A stretch of 64,000 nucleotides of DNA from Chitinophagaceae bacterium C216. GTDB taxonomy: Bacteria; Bacteroidota; Bacteroidia; Chitinophagales; Chitinophagaceae. The position numbers and the translations under genes are program-made. The notes beneath the pieces were generated by a model. That model was not told the DNA's origin. It ran no database searches and saw nothing but the letters and a program-made list of their open reading frames with translations. Where the stretch lies: contig CP144143.1 of assembly GCA_028485475.2 (NCBI GenBank), forward strand, positions 1,426,001-1,490,000. The letters run 5' to 3'. Positions 3,755 to 44,306 of the stretch are shown piece by piece (positions within the stretch are counted from its first letter, which is position 1; each line of letters begins with the position of its first letter).

Positions 3755-3979
3755 ATGGAAACAACTTATATCGATCTCTCTCAGGACGAACTGCAAGTAA
3801 CAAGATTGGATGAAACTTCGGCAACAGCACAGGCTTATGACGGAGATGGAGATGGAGGTGCTGACGGAGGCGATGGCGCTGATGGAGATGGCGGAGCCGA
3901 TGGTGACGGCGGAGCAGACGGCGATGGTGGCGCTGACGGAGATGGTGGTGCAGACGGTGATGGTGGAGACGGCGCATAA
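3755..3979 (+). CDS. Candidate RiPP precursor: Asp/Gly/Ala hexapeptide-repeat peptide
   Basis: A 74-residue peptide that I do not recognise from any named family. Residues 1-28 (METTYIDLSQDELQVTRLDE, then TSATAQAY) look like a polar, leader-like segment without a signal peptide. Residues 29-74 consist only of Asp, Gly and Ala, built on DGDGGA: DGDGDGGA, DGGDGA, four exact DGDGGA units, then DGDGGDGA. The tail has 16 Asp and no Lys, Arg, Cys, Ser or Thr. A longer reading from an in-frame ATG at 3707 would place the start inside the promoter dyad, so ATG 3755 is preferred. It has its own promoter and terminator and lies 104 bases before a JmjC oxygenase gene, suggesting that Asp (or backbone) residues are modified. 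Alternative: an unmodified calcium- or metal-binding acidic peptide, since DxDxDG resembles EF-hand loops. Confidence 0.7.
   Translation: METTYIDLSQDELQVTRLDETSATAQAYDGDGDGGADGGDGADGDGGADGDGGADGDGGADGDGGADGDGGDGA
3839..3976 (+). repeat. Hexapeptide-coding tandem repeat (period 18 bases)
   Basis: Encodes 46 Asp/Gly/Ala residues. The four exact DGDGGA units are spelled differently: their third codon bases read TATCAC, TTCCAA, CCTTCT and CATTTA. The peptide sequence is therefore conserved while the DNA is not, unlike a fresh slippage array. Confidence 0.85.
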
Positions 3980-4017
3980 ATCTTATAACGCTTGAGTTCT
4001 ATTAAAAAACTTTTTAC

Positions 4018-4052
4018 AAAGCTGCAGTGATATTCTTTTCTGCAGCTTTTTT
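4018..4052 (+). terminator. Terminator after the repeat-peptide gene
   Basis: AAAGCTGCAG and CTGCAGCTTT form a perfect 10-base stem around a 12-base loop and run into a T tract. It would separate high-level transcription of the small peptide gene from the enzyme genes that follow. A near-consensus -7 box (TACATTTTG, 4052-4060) directly behind it may start the enzyme transcript. Confidence 0.8.
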
Positions 4053-4083
4053 ACATTTTGCATTTACATAAATCATATTTTAT

Positions 4084-5271
4084 ATGACGCGTTTTTTTGA
4101 ATCGATTATCGCACCTTATACTATTGACGATTTTTTTACCCGATACCACGAAAAGGATATTCTATACATTAACCGCAACGATGCATCTTATTACAACCCT
4201 ATACTTACTTCACAGGAAATTTCAGATTATCTGGATAGACAGGATATCTTTTACCCTTCTGTGCGTATGGTAAAAGACGGGAAGGAAGTTCCTAATGGCG
4301 AATACACGCTCAAAAGCACACCTATAGGCCATCACAGAAAAGATGGAATTATCAATACCGATAAAGCTTTTGCACTGTTTAACAACGGTGCTACCTTTGT
4401 AATTCAGGCAGGACAACGTTATTTTAATAATCTTTCTCATTGCTGTTTGCAATTATCGCAAAAATTTAATTCACCCGTTCAGGCCAACTTATACATTACG
4501 CCCAGTCGTTCGCAGGGATTTCATCCGCATTGGGACACTCACGATGTATTTGTACTGCAGATAGCTGGCACCAAAACCTGGCACCTATACGGCTTTGAAA
4601 AAGAACTACCTACCAAGAATCAATCTTTCGTTAGCAAAGATTATAACAAAGAGCCCTTACAAACCCTTCAGATTAAGCCTGGAGATTTTCTATATGTACC
4701 TCGTGGCTATGTGCATGATGCCGTAGCCGATGATGGCGTTTCGGCACATATCACCATCGGTATACTCTCTTTCACCTGGGTACGATTCTTCAACGAAGTA
4801 TTTCCGCAACTGGAAGCGTTTAAAGAATTTAGAGAGGCGGTTCCGTTTTGGAAAGACAATCTTGACGAGCTAATACAAGAAAAGGTAAAACTTCTTACGC
4901 AAAAATTATCAGAGCTGAATTTTAAGGATGGCATAGAGAGGCTCAATAAAAGTTACCGTACTGCACAGCCGCAACCAGTACGTAATTATTTTGAAAGCGT
5001 ATGCAATGTACAGTCTATTCAGCCGCAAACGTCTTTTCGCTTGAATGAAGGGGTACTTTTCTCTTCTGTCGAAAATGATAACGGTTTTGAACTACGTTTC
5101 TGGGGAAAGGCTATCCAGTTAAGCAATGCAGTGCGACCGGTGATTGATTTTATATTTGAGCGCAAGCAATTTACATTAGACGAATTACCAGGCGAGTTGA
5201 ACGAGGAAGTCAAAAAAAAACTGCTTACGCAACTAGTGAAGGAGGGCGTTGTTTATATTGAAGCGTTATAA
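4084..5271 (+). CDS. JmjC-domain (cupin_4) Fe(II)/2-oxoglutarate oxygenase
   Basis: A 395-residue cytosolic protein of the ribosomal-oxygenase-type JmjC family (YcfD, NO66, MINA53), whose members beta-hydroxylate Arg or His side chains in proteins. The iron triad is visible: His149 and Asp151 in GFHPHWDTHDVF, and His211 in PRGYVHDA. Lys164 in QIAGTKTWHLYG is the likely 2-oxoglutarate ligand. The helical middle (about 230-310) and the C-terminal region (about 350-395, FTLDELPGELNEEV then KKKLLTQLVKEGVVYIE) match the dimerisation and winged-helix parts of this family. It starts 104 bases after the Asp/Gly-repeat peptide gene and 11 bases before the ferredoxin-like gene. I infer that the peptide is its substrate. 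A housekeeping ribosomal target is the main alternative, but YcfD-like enzymes do not normally sit beside a repeat peptide. Confidence 0.88.
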   Translation: MTRFFESIIAPYTIDDFFTRYHEKDILYINRNDASYYNPILTSQEISDYLDRQDIFYPSVRMVKDGKEVPNGEYTLKSTPIGHHRKDGIINTDKAFALFNNGATFVIQAGQRYFNNLSHCCLQLSQKFNSPVQANLYITPSRSQGFHPHWDTHDVFVLQIAGTKTWHLYGFEKELPTKNQSFVSKDYNKEPLQTLQIKPGDFLYVPRGYVHDAVADDGVSAHITIGILSFTWVRFFNEVFPQLEAFKEFREAVPFWKDNLDELIQEKVKLLTQKLSELNFKDGIERLNKSYRTAQPQPVRNYFESVCNVQSIQPQTSFRLNEGVLFSSVENDNGFELRFWGKAIQLSNAVRPVIDFIFERKQFTLDELPGELNEEVKKKLLTQLVKEGVVYIEAL

Positions 5272-5282
5272 AGATTATTTTT

Positions 5283-6188
5283 TTGAAACAGATAACTGAT
5301 AAAGACGTATTTTTTTGCAGTGCAGCTTCGCGATATTTTAAAGAGCCACTGGCAGGAACTGCTGCCAACAGCAGCGTTTTTATATTGATAGAGCATTGCA
5401 ATCCTTTTCCGGCAAAAGTAGGGGAGGCGCATTTTGATAAAGCTTGGCTTCAAGGTATACAGAAACTGGCAAAGTCTCTAAAAGGGAAAGTTTTGCTAAT
5501 TCGCAATAAGAAAACCAATTTCAGAGACTGTCGTATCATTTTTGTCGATTGTAAGAAATGCGCCTACTTTACTATTCAACTACCTATTGAGCAGGTGGCT
5601 ACGGTTCGTCTTGCAGATTACATACATTCCGAGTCTACTGAATGGGAGACCGACCCGTTTTTTGTAATCTGTACCAATGGGAAAAAAGATAAGTGTTGCG
5701 CTAAGTTTGGATATCCTGTATTCAAGTTTTTTGAGGCTTTCAATACCGATGTGCAAGTATGGGAGAGTTCTCATGTAGGTGGAGACCGCTTTGCGGCTAA
5801 TGTTGTGGCCTTGCCTTTTGGTATTTATTATGGACATGTAGTAGTAGAAGATGTAGGCCATATTATGGTGCGCACCTTGCTTAGAAAAATTTACAAGAAT
5901 AAATACAGGGGATTAAGCCGTCGCTCATTTTTTGAGCAATCTGTAGAATGTTATGTGCGTGAGTATCTGCAAAACTATGATATCGATTTTGACATTAGCA
6001 TGAAACTCCTGCATCATGAAGAAGACCGATATACCGTAGGGGTAAAGACTACCAGCAATTTTCACTGCGAAGTAGTGCTGCTAAAAGAGCGTATCGATTA
6101 TCCGCACTTGCTTACCTGTAAATCGAGGGCGCCGGAAACTATTGTAAAGTACAGATTGCTAGAGTTAAAGCCCTTCGACGTTATATAA
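5283..6188 (+). CDS. Sucrase/ferredoxin-like (Suc_Fer, Apd1-type) thioredoxin-fold protein
   Basis: A 301-residue protein of the sucrase/ferredoxin-like family (Pfam Suc_Fer-like), a thioredoxin-fold [2Fe-2S] group related to yeast Apd1. Diagnostic stretches are ICTNGKKDKCCAKFGYP (Cys130, Cys138, Cys139) and WESSHVGGDRFAANVVALP (His164), which hold the likely cluster ligands and conserved core. The N-terminus FFCSAASR is also typical. The C-terminal ~90 residues are less conserved. The best start is a TTG 11 bases after the JmjC stop codon; I see no better upstream ATG, so translational coupling is likely. It overlaps the end of convergent nth by 8 bases. Redox partner or electron donor for the neighbouring oxygenase is an inference from position only. 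Confidence 0.85.
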   Translation: MKQITDKDVFFCSAASRYFKEPLAGTAANSSVFILIEHCNPFPAKVGEAHFDKAWLQGIQKLAKSLKGKVLLIRNKKTNFRDCRIIFVDCKKCAYFTIQLPIEQVATVRLADYIHSESTEWETDPFFVICTNGKKDKCCAKFGYPVFKFFEAFNTDVQVWESSHVGGDRFAANVVALPFGIYYGHVVVEDVGHIMVRTLLRKIYKNKYRGLSRRSFFEQSVECYVREYLQNYDIDFDISMKLLHHEEDRYTVGVKTTSNFHCEVVLLKERIDYPHLLTCKSRAPETIVKYRLLELKPFDVI

Positions 6189-6831
6189 GCGTAACATTTT
6201 TGTGAAACCATGCGCAGGCCTGTTGTAATCCGCATTCGCGGCATTTGGGGTTGCGTGCCATACAAGTATAACGTCCATGTAATATCAGCCAGTGATGGGC
6301 TTTATGAATCAACGAGGGGTCAATATTTTTAACCAGCTCCTTTTCTACAGCCAAGGGTGTGCTCGCTTTGGGTGATACAAGTCCTATTCTTTTGCTTACC
6401 CGGAATACATGTGTGTCTACAGCCATATTGGGCTGCTTTTCAATTACCGAAGTAATCACGTTAGCGGTTTTGCGCCCTACTCCCGGCAGCGTAGTTAATT
6501 CCTGTACGGTCATAGGTATTTCGCCGTTAAATTCTTCCACAACCTTCTTAGCCATTCCTACCAGATGTTTGCTCTTATTGTTAGGATAAGAGATGCTTTT
6601 GATAATAGGAAACACTTCTTCCGGAGTGGCTTTACTTAGGCTGTATATATCCGGATATTTTTGAAAAAGATGCGGTGTGGTCAGGTTCACACGCTTGTCG
6701 GTACATTGTGCGGATAATATTACAGCTACCAACAATTGATAGGGGTTATCATATATCAACTCCGTTTCAGGTTCGGGCATATGTTCCGAAAAATAATCAA
6801 TAACAAACCGATAACGCTCTTTCTTTGTCAT
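6181..6831 (-). CDS. nth: Endonuclease III (DNA glycosylase/AP lyase)
   Basis: Base-excision repair enzyme that removes oxidised pyrimidines and cuts the AP site. The 216-residue length is typical. The helix-hairpin-helix LPGVGRKTANV carries catalytic Lys121, and VDTHVFRV carries catalytic Asp139. The C-terminal [4Fe-4S] ligands Cys190, Cys197, Cys200 and Cys206 show the C-x6-C-x2-C-x5-C pattern. SAQCTDKRVN near residue 40 is also characteristic. Its last 8 bases overlap the convergent Suc_Fer gene, with no terminator between. It appears to be a single housekeeping gene; upstream is a 116-base gap before the end of manA in which I see nothing notable. Confidence 0.96.
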   Translation of the reverse strand: MTKKERYRFVIDYFSEHMPEPETELIYDNPYQLLVAVILSAQCTDKRVNLTTPHLFQKYPDIYSLSKATPEEVFPIIKSISYPNNKSKHLVGMAKKVVEEFNGEIPMTVQELTTLPGVGRKTANVITSVIEKQPNMAVDTHVFRVSKRIGLVSPKASTPLAVEKELVKNIDPSLIHKAHHWLILHGRYTCMARNPKCRECGLQQACAWFHKNVTLI

Positions 6832-42824: not shown

Positions 42825-44306
42825 TTAAGATGCTTTGATAGACTTCATTGCTGTCATTGCTTTACGCAATACACGACCTACGTCTTCAACGGGGTGATTG
42901 CGGATAGCCTCGTTGATTTTAATCAGCAACTGGTTGTCTACCGAATTGTCTTTACCTTCATTAAAGTTTTTACCTACTAAGTCGGTATCCACTTTCTTCA
43001 TAAAATCTGCCAACAACGGTTTACAAGCCTGATCAAACAGGTAACAACCATATTCAGCTGTATCAGAGATGACGCGGTTCATTTCGTAAAGCTTCTTACG
43101 AGCAATTGTGTTGGCGATTAGCGGGGTTTCGTGTAATGACTCATAATAGGCAGATTCGGGTTTAATGCCTGCATCCACCATGGTTTCGAATGCTAGTTCC
43201 ACGCCCGCTTTGATGAAGGCCACCATTAGGGTGTAGTTATCAAAATATTCCTGTTCGCTAATAGGCATATCTCCTGCTGGAGTTTTTTCAAATGCAGTTT
43301 CAGCAGTTTCAGCTCTCCATTTCAGCAATTTGGCATCACCATTTGCCCAGTCCTCCATCATGGTTTTGCTGAATTCACCGCTGAGGATATCGTCCATGTG
43401 TTTTTCGAACAATGGGCGCATGATGCTTTTCAGCTCCTCAGCCACCTCAAAGGCTTTTATTTTAGCTGGATTGCTCAGGCGATCCATCATGCCTGTAATA
43501 CCGCCGTGCTTCAATGCTTCGGTAATAACTTCTACTCCATATTGTACGAGTTTGGCAGCATAGCCGGGGTCGATACCTTTTTCAATCATCTTATCGAACG
43601 ACAAAATCGAAGCTGTTTGTAGCAGACCACAAAGAATGGTTTGTTCTCCCATTAGGTCTGATTTCACTTCAGCCACAAAAGATGATCTCAGTACACCGGC
43701 ACGATGTCCGCCGATACCTACACAGTAGGCTTTGGCCCACTCTAAGCCTTTTCCTTCCGGATCGTTTTCGGGGTGTACGGCGATAAGCGTAGGCACTCCA
43801 AAGCCGCGCAGATATTCCGCTCTTACCTCGCTACCCGGGCTTTTGGGAGCCACCATAATTACGGTAATATCCTTACGTATTTGCATGCCTTCTTCTACAA
43901 TATTGAAGCCATGTGAATACGATAATGTAGCACCTTTTTTCATCAATGGCATAACCGCGTTGATAACGCTGGTGTGTTGCTTGTCGGGTGTAAGATTGAT
44001 TACCAAGTCAGCGATAGGAATCAGCTCTTCGTACGTACCTACTTGAAAGTTGTTGTCGGTAGCATTTTTCCAACTTGCTCTTTTTTGCTCTATAGCTTCT
44101 TTTCTCAAAGCATAGGAAACATCCAGTCCGCTATCTCTCAGGTTTAACCCTTGATTTAAACCCTGAGCACCACAACCTACGATAACGATTTTTTTTCCTT
44201 TCAGCGCATTAACACCATCTGCGAACTCATCTTTATCCATGAATTCACAAACACCTAATTGTTTTAGCTGCTCTCTGAATGGTAACGTGTTAAAATAATT
44301 CGCCAT
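42825..44306 (-). CDS. ilvC: Ketol-acid reductoisomerase, class II (long form)
   Basis: Converts acetolactate or acetohydroxybutyrate to the dihydroxy acids with NADPH and Mg2+. At 493 residues it is the class II form with a duplicated C-terminal knotted domain. The Rossmann motif is [20 protein letters not shown], and [16 protein letters not shown] is the NADPH-phosphate-binding region. [11 protein letters not shown] supplies metal-binding Asp and Glu, and [20 protein letters not shown] is typical. It follows ilvN and a DinB gene in the ilv operon. The start [14 protein letters not shown] is the usual one for this form. Confidence 0.97.

Follow-up and report, generated by a model that had tools for sequence, protein, structure and literature searches.

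In the genome of Chitinophagaceae bacterium C216 (3.34 Mb, one contig), three consecutive genes encode an Asp/Gly-repeat peptide, a JmjC oxygenase and a Suc_Fer protein. We propose that this cassette is a system of the RiPP type (ribosomally synthesized and post-translationally modified peptide) in which the JmjC enzyme, guided by the leader of the peptide, would β-hydroxylate Asp residues and so give a metal-binding polyanion, with the Suc_Fer protein as an accessory; we regard this reading as moderately probable. The cassette lies in a 64-kb stretch of DNA that was analysed as a whole (CP144143.1, positions 1,426,001–1,490,000), which we call the window and whose numbering is used throughout. 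All features of the cassette are on the + strand.

The peptide gene (3755–3979; ATG at 3755, stop codon 3977–3979) encodes 74 residues. The reading frame and its composition bear out the division made in the initial annotation, a leader-like N-terminal part of 28 residues (3755–3838) and a tail of 46 residues, the presumed core (3839–3979 with the stop codon), made up of Asp (16), Gly (23) and Ala (7). The DNA of the tail is the top-scoring tandem array in the window (Tandem Repeats Finder score 124). The sole other tandem repeat row of the window is at 43298–43344 (22-bp unit, 2.1 copies).

Codon differences were counted in seven copies from Niabella (the genus with which the source is grouped here) that have ungapped 69-residue peptides; the counts are pairwise and non-independent, and amount to 421 synonymous and 12 nonsynonymous differences of 882 comparisons in the tail, and to 146 synonymous and 112 nonsynonymous of 567 in the leader. 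Random single changes would be expected to be nonsynonymous in 76% of cases in the tail and 82% in the leader. The tail repeat is more than chance, because of this synonymous excess and because a peptide profile matches once, and only once, in every one of the 15 Niabella genomes that carry JmjC. Leader and tail are under different constraint within the clade, the tail being more conserved and the leader more variable, as befits a short precursor made on the ribosome whose leader and core are separable parts; between clades the repeat number and the Ala/Ser/Thr spacers of the tail change, and D-x-D is kept. A conserved leader followed by a variable or expanding tail had been expected. This pattern is only partly seen, since the repeat number does vary between clades but the tail is the firmer part within a clade and the leader the one that varies. 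In 12 aligned peptides, N-terminal residues of V-T-R type and an Asp-repeat tail are common to all. The leader in the window contains LSQDELQVTR, which includes the motif [LI]xx[DE][DE][ILVF]. This motif occurs in 10 of 16 chosen peptides in its strict form and in 14 of 16 in a loose form (shuffled means 0.4 and 0.7; counts never reached in 20,000 shuffles), figures that are descriptive, as the motif was derived from the same sequences and the 16 peptides were hand-picked from more than 50.

The second gene (4084–5271) encodes a JmjC_2 2-oxoglutarate/Fe(II) oxygenase of 395 residues (PF08007, E 3.5e-28). Its HxD...H triad is intact, as first annotated, with H149 (4528–4530), D151 (4534–4536) and H211 (4714–4716) as ligands; K164 (4573–4575) is the putative 2-oxoglutarate lysine. 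All four residues are invariant in an alignment of 33 rows (the window and 32 of the 59 loci described below; L020, L027 and L028 were left out as broken, the rest as redundant or truncated). The AlphaFold2 model has a mean predicted local distance difference test score (pLDDT) of 90.5 and its best PDB fold matches are NO66 (E 1e-29) and MINA53, followed by YcfD (E 3e-18) and FIH (E 2e-9). A sequence search also places the protein nearest NO66/MINA53. The likeness to FIH drawn in the initial annotation is corrected here: in both searches the histidyl hydroxylases NO66 and MINA53 are closest and FIH is far lower. Residues 317–395 (5032–5271) form strands followed by helices in a winged-helix-like arrangement (pLDDT about 90). 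We regard this C-terminal domain of the model as a candidate leader-binding domain resembling the RiPP recognition element (RRE).

A terminator-like hairpin (4018–4049; 4018–4052 with its T run) separates the peptide gene from the JmjC gene. It is present in all 14 intergenic regions examined (L014 and L015 were outside the sample). In an alignment of 11 of the 14 hairpins the stem of 9 bp has standard pairs in all 99 pair cells, with two pairs changed on both sides, a level of covariation that was reached by 32 of 500 shuffles. A consensus terminator scanner scored nothing at this position; the hairpin is retained as a feature despite this, because it is conserved across the intergenic regions. 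Precursor genes are commonly made in excess of their enzyme, and the hairpin would let the peptide be produced in excess over the JmjC protein.

Fifteen of the 17 Niabella genomes, the source included, carry the peptide, JmjC and Suc_Fer genes as a set (JmjC threshold E 1e-30). In all 15 a Suc_Fer sequence lies behind the JmjC gene and the DG peptide in front of it. The other two genomes, G007 (99% complete) and G013 (74%), have no match to JmjC, Suc_Fer or peptide. Peptides were located by the profile, as a search with the pattern DGDGxDG is insensitive (it missed those of G001 and G002 and matched elsewhere in G003, G004 and G012). In G002, G003 and G012 the JmjC gene is broken by a frameshift or stop, and in G003 Suc_Fer is also in pieces; these copies, left out of a 12-row JmjC alignment, could be assembly errors. 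The broken genes were seen at L014/L017/L027, L015/L028 and L004/L020 (N. defluvii, N. hibiscisoli and N. ginsengisoli).

Beyond the genus, no JmjC match at E 1e-30 was found in 43 other genomes of the family, and in a sample of the order one of 39 has a match, at 25% identity. Of the 147 genomes that make up a family sample the peptide profile matches two, each a Niabella cassette carrier. Six of 395 genomes in a sample of the phylum have a JmjC match, namely the source and five distant ones, which have no Suc_Fer in the stretches of about 4 kb around them and no DG peptide among the listed forward-strand reading frames. Cruoricaptor ignavus (Weeksellaceae) is the only organism outside Niabella with the close form of the cassette, as judged from a contig scan and from a sample of its own family, where 4 of 296 genomes match JmjC and only Cruoricaptor does so closely. 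It has all three genes, with the tail repeat DGDGT and an identity to the window of 62% for JmjC and 39% for Suc_Fer. In an unrooted JmjC tree of 37 rows its protein falls inside the group formed by six Niabella rows and the window (support 95/99; whole DG clade 100/99), which points to horizontal transfer, with the direction being an inference. Thus the three-gene arrangement that was to be sought in related Bacteroidota is found in all 15 JmjC-bearing Niabella genomes and in Cruoricaptor, and none of these 16 JmjC/Suc_Fer pairs is without a DG peptide, the case that had been set as contrary evidence. A putative modifying enzyme beside its presumed precursor across genomes, as is characteristic of RiPPs, is what these loci display.

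More distant relatives extend the pairing. A scan of genome contigs with the alignment as query gave 59 loci, 10 close (nine Niabella and Cruoricaptor) and 49 distant (23–32% identity); it was limited to the exact patterns PHWDTHD or L[DE]RQD[IV]FY and is no census, and an earlier scan with a single JmjC sequence had found no relative. In 38 of the 49 distant loci a small acidic-tailed protein with a similar N-terminal motif, mostly twin-arginine-like, is encoded beside JmjC; the tail has Asp in 36 and is mainly Glu in two. A pattern of twin-arginine-like motif plus Asp-rich tail, searched over whole loci, identifies 31 of these peptides, all of them lying upstream of JmjC at a distance of at most 750 bases; seven (L029, L037, L048, L054, L055, L056 and L065) were added by eye. 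The 38 loci span Acidobacteriota, Gemmatimonadota, Planctomycetota (one), Opitutaceae (one) and Acetobacteraceae (one). A composition test that used no leader motif, with thresholds set after the peptides had been seen, detects small Asp-rich reading frames no more than 1 kb from JmjC at 25 of 50 loci (94 kb; 24 distant loci and Cruoricaptor), against one such frame in 663,259 bases elsewhere. Two of six peptides of the twin-arginine translocation (Tat) type narrowly pass the NCBIfam twin-arginine model (L069 18.0, L071 17.1; cut-off 16.7), and in our reading the Tat-type peptides carry a lipobox and would be lipoprotein-like. As for the annotated role of the tail as JmjC substrate, genetic linkage, selection on the tail and recurrence with Asp-rich peptides in other phyla strengthen the pairing of enzyme and substrate, which is well supported by this comparative evidence; the modification itself was a prediction and is treated as such below.

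Other members of the JmjC family stand in other RiPP-like contexts. In Chitinophaga niastensis the JmjC gene adjoins one for a maturase-like protein of the radical SAM/SPASM kind, whose score against TIGR04463 (203.6 bits) is below the cut-off, and in two Bacteroidota loci (L080, L081) JmjC lies beside several peptide genes of the nitrile hydratase-like leader peptide (NHLP) type, a call that rests on 48.4 bits (cut-off 50.9) in the one tested and on resemblance in the other. Among non-cassette relatives the one nearest in the tree (G352; L108:6098-8249) has tandem JmjC genes and a divergent 57-residue peptide (MKKIQL...VWGGNDGG...) with a GG motif. Among 72,556 plasmid records 45 have a JmjC relative, five of which were examined. 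On a plasmid of Streptomyces clavuligerus (L111:3784-5179) a 48-residue peptide (MDDKKTSLEPDEIEV...) precedes JmjC; it has the leader LEPDEIEV and the core ADNDPSDPPIAIADPDPFDPVI with repeated ADNDP/ADPDP, S9 peptidase and ATP-binding cassette (ABC) transporter genes are nearby, and the locus looks like a small RiPP cluster. The Rhizobium and Mycetohabitans plasmid loci have radical SAM genes, that of Pseudanabaena a LanM gene and that of Dolichospermum a GG-type peptide. Because of these NHLP, radical SAM, LanM and GG-type contexts, Asp-rich peptides are not the only partners of the JmjC family. Clustering of neighbouring genes gave many spurious reading frames in GC-rich loci, and only the PepSY_TM family (below) was taken further.

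These contexts bear on the possibility that the peptide is not modified at all, but is an acidic calcium- or metal-binding or hydrophilic peptide, with a JmjC protein that acts on another protein in the manner of a ribosomal oxygenase and with genes that are merely co-inherited. The fold, which is that of the ribosomal oxygenases NO66/MINA53, is compatible with such a role, and DGD repeats alone can bind calcium. Mere co-inheritance fits less well with the finding that each of the 17 Niabella genomes has either both peptide and JmjC or neither, with the recurrence of differently built Asp-rich peptides beside distant JmjC relatives and with the RiPP-type precursors or maturases that adjoin some other relatives, and we consider this explanation rather improbable. 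Somewhat less improbable, and still unlikely in our view, is that the peptide is the JmjC substrate and undergoes another modification: hydroxylation of Gly or Ala, oxidation past the alcohol (Asp to aminomalonate), or reaction at one position only, within the leader or close to it. Such chemistry has a precedent, in that SmaO and SmaX turn Asp via β-hydroxy-Asp into aminomalonic acid in a graspetide pathway, as cited in PMC13097080; two of the Tat-type tails are Glu-rich, and the nearest solved enzymes hydroxylate His, according to their PDB titles. Yet D-x-D is the element common to the DG, Tat-D (Tat-type, Asp-rich) and S. clavuligerus tails. The tail in the window holds Asp, Gly and Ala only, and among these three we know of a JmjC hydroxylase precedent for Asp alone.

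The third gene (5283–6188, TTG start) encodes a Suc_Fer-like protein, a thioredoxin-like ferredoxin homologue, and begins 11 bases past the JmjC stop codon, in agreement with the annotation; the part from 5304 matches PF06999 (E 5.7e-23). Apd1/Aim32 proteins use the motifs CX8C and HX3H, as stated in the accessible part of the source (PMC8482512). In our alignment of 10 rows (L027 left out) all the cassette copies have CX8C (5670 and 5697 in the window), and HX3D (5772 and 5784) takes the place of HX3H in 10 of 10. Outside the cassette, HX3H was seen in three of three copies, all from a single other genus of the phylum; L099, the fourth copy to pass the cut-off, showed no such motif. The description of the protein as of [2Fe-2S] type accordingly holds in part: PF06999 and CX8C agree with it, the histidine motif of Apd1-type proteins does not. 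A sequence search of the PDB gives weak matches to [2Fe-2S] ferredoxins (best E 0.0042), and a fold search with the AlphaFold2 model (pLDDT 71) gives no match at E 0.001. Few genomes of the phylum have Suc_Fer (5 of 296 over the cut-off, source included). Stretches of about 3.5 kb around the other copies gave no JmjC match, and the 49 distant JmjC loci yielded no Suc_Fer. Because of HX3D and of this absence from the distant loci, we treat Suc_Fer as an accessory with a possibly altered cluster.

A lead to function comes from the distant loci, 27 of which (within the range L029 to L069) contain PepSY_TM homologues (PF03929 confirmed for three of the 27). In 21 of 23 loci measured the PepSY_TM gene is on the same strand as the peptide gene and just downstream of it. 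β-Hydroxyaspartate is an iron ligand in several siderophores. At one Gemmatimonadota locus (L069:7870-15416) a PepSY_TM homologue, a peptide of SDSDG repeats and JmjC are followed by a binding protein, a FecCD-type permease, an ATPase and a HutX-like protein. The ATPase exceeds the cut-off of a heme ABC transporter model (297 bits against 261), the family matches of the periplasmic binding protein, the permease and the HutX-like protein are below cut-off, and the locus is possibly an iron or heme uptake operon. PepSY_TM members include periplasmic ferrisiderophore reductases, and one has been proposed to reduce copper, as far as the accessible part of the source goes (PMC13038864). Taken together, the PepSY_TM neighbours, the transporter genes of L069 and iron ligation by β-hydroxyaspartate are the basis of our metal hypothesis.

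Several observations weigh against the proposal of a leader-guided, Asp-hydroxylating system with a metal-binding product, in addition to the His specificity of the nearest solved enzymes and the way in which the leader motif was obtained. The metal function rests on distant relatives: L001–L028 have no PepSY_TM match, and the Niabella locus itself shows no sign of such a function. Asp is not strictly kept in the Tat-type tails, those of L029 and L037 being mainly ESEG repeats where relatives have DSDQ, and the tails of L030, L048 and L054 are short. Seven of the 49 distant loci (L058, L063, L066, L072, L075, L076 and L077) are without such a peptide; four more (L067, L070, L073 and L074) are truncated on the upstream side and cannot be judged, and the sequence of L065 ends before the leader. 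Many of the 38 positive loci are near-identical Acidobacteriota bins and so amount to fewer independent cases. In the unrooted JmjC tree the DG clade does not pair as sister with the Tat-D clade, for which reason the shared Asp tail could be convergent. The Suc_Fer identity of Cruoricaptor (39%) lies below that of all intact Niabella copies compared (52–72%), and given the 62% of its JmjC a joint transfer of the three genes is not clear. HX3D in the cassette Suc_Fer, as far as a motif can tell, speaks against a standard cluster of the Apd1 type. Lastly, of the 11 cassette loci compared, no more than 5 share any fourth gene family (reading frames of at least 90 residues), and no conserved protease or exporter was found across these 11, as the annotation had noted for the neighbourhood of the window. 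A leader protease and an exporter are common in RiPP clusters, not universal. The genes that flank the cassette vary from clade to clade.

The missing protease and exporter could be encoded elsewhere in the genome if the peptide were a bacteriocin or another antimicrobial RiPP. The S. clavuligerus relative, which has genes for an S9 peptidase and an ABC transporter nearby, and the restriction of the close form outside Niabella to Cruoricaptor would suit such a role; the lack of a recurrent fourth family in the cassette loci would not, and a tail that is nearly unchanged within a clade is unexpected for a peptide in an arms race. We judge an antimicrobial function to be very improbable.

For the proposed hydroxylation system we envisage the following course. 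The 74-residue peptide would be the precursor and LSQDELQVTR its recognition region, probably bound by the winged-helix-like C-terminal domain of JmjC. With Fe(II), O2 and 2-oxoglutarate the enzyme would then hydroxylate the tail repeatedly, most likely at the β-carbon of Asp in the D-x-D units, and the product would be a polyanion rich in β-hydroxyaspartate, most likely a ligand of iron or copper. In Niabella, Suc_Fer may serve the iron or redox supply of JmjC or of the product. In other phyla the same logic may apply to an exported-looking, lipoprotein-like substrate, often encoded beside a PepSY_TM protein of the metal-reductase kind. A broader claim, which we put forward tentatively and which may well not hold, is that of a phylum-spanning class of genetically encoded poly(β-hydroxyaspartate) peptides, in which JmjC enzymes with RRE-like domains hydroxylate D-x-D repeats many times; the products would be metal-chelating, in Niabella without an evident export signal and elsewhere as Tat-exported lipoproteins accompanied by PepSY_TM metal reductases. 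Such peptides, if real, would be the ribosomal counterpart of the β-hydroxyaspartate siderophores. JmjC together with Asp-rich peptides was seen in seven phyla, of which four are represented by one locus each. No description of JmjC enzymes with Asp-repeat precursors was found in the open literature, as judged by titles and the beginnings of abstracts, with subscription titles mostly outside this search. The proposal, if true, would define a RiPP class for which we found no prior description, made by two or three genes through a simple chemistry that is repeated; it would also assign a role to the PF08007 clade whose genes neighbour those of small peptides, and would connect the hydroxylation of peptides with metal handling.

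The models passed over cut-off by the three cassette proteins are JmjC_2, Cupin_8 and Suc_Fer-like, with no others; the peptide has no family above cut-off, and NCBIfam gives no match for any of the three. No ATP-grasp, Lan enzyme, radical SAM or lasso cyclase, the enzymes by which graspetides, lanthipeptides, sactipeptides and lasso peptides are recognized, is encoded in the cassette. PADLOC models of anti-phage defence match none of the three proteins, PHROGs gives five families of unknown function for JmjC and none for the peptide or Suc_Fer, Rfam at gathering thresholds has no family in the window, and one scan of viral contigs with the JmjC protein gave no match. The 3' end of the Suc_Fer gene overlaps a convergent gene (6181–6831) by 8 bases (6181–6188); we take its product to resemble endonuclease III.

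The closest known proteins to the cassette JmjC are NO66 and MINA53, which share with it the fold, the HxD...H triad and a lysine 13 residues past the Asp, and which also end in a winged-helix domain, as the cassette model does in a winged-helix-like one. They act on histidines of ribosomal proteins, whereas the JmjC clade of the cassette is encoded beside small Asp-rich peptides. With the Apd1/Aim32-type Suc_Fer proteins, as presented in the accessible part of the source (PMC8482512), the third protein shares the PF06999 domain and CX8C; it differs in HX3D and so departs from the CX8C...HX3H signature. Fusions of an RRE with JmjC (PF08007) in the RRE-Finder 2025 work likewise combine JmjC_2 with an RRE-like domain in bacterial RiPP-like contexts (PMC12710340); they are the subject of a short remark, and the accessible text does not describe the Asp-rich precursor family, Suc_Fer or PepSY_TM. 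A JmjC oxygenase as hydroxylase of a RiPP pathway is exemplified by BipG of the biphenomycin pathway (PMC12707348). BipG, compared by description only, differs as an ornithine hydroxylase of a multi-enzyme pathway, with no mention of Asp repeats in the available portion of that report. The product residue we predict, β-hydroxyaspartate in a ribosomal peptide, is that of PesHI (PMC13060819) and of SmaO from the graspetide pathway (cited in PMC13097080). PesHI is a multinuclear non-heme iron-dependent oxidative enzyme (MNIO) acting at one Asp and the enzyme family of SmaO is not named, with no repeat tail mentioned for either in the accessible parts of the two papers, whereas the cassette JmjC would act many times along a tail of D-x-D units.

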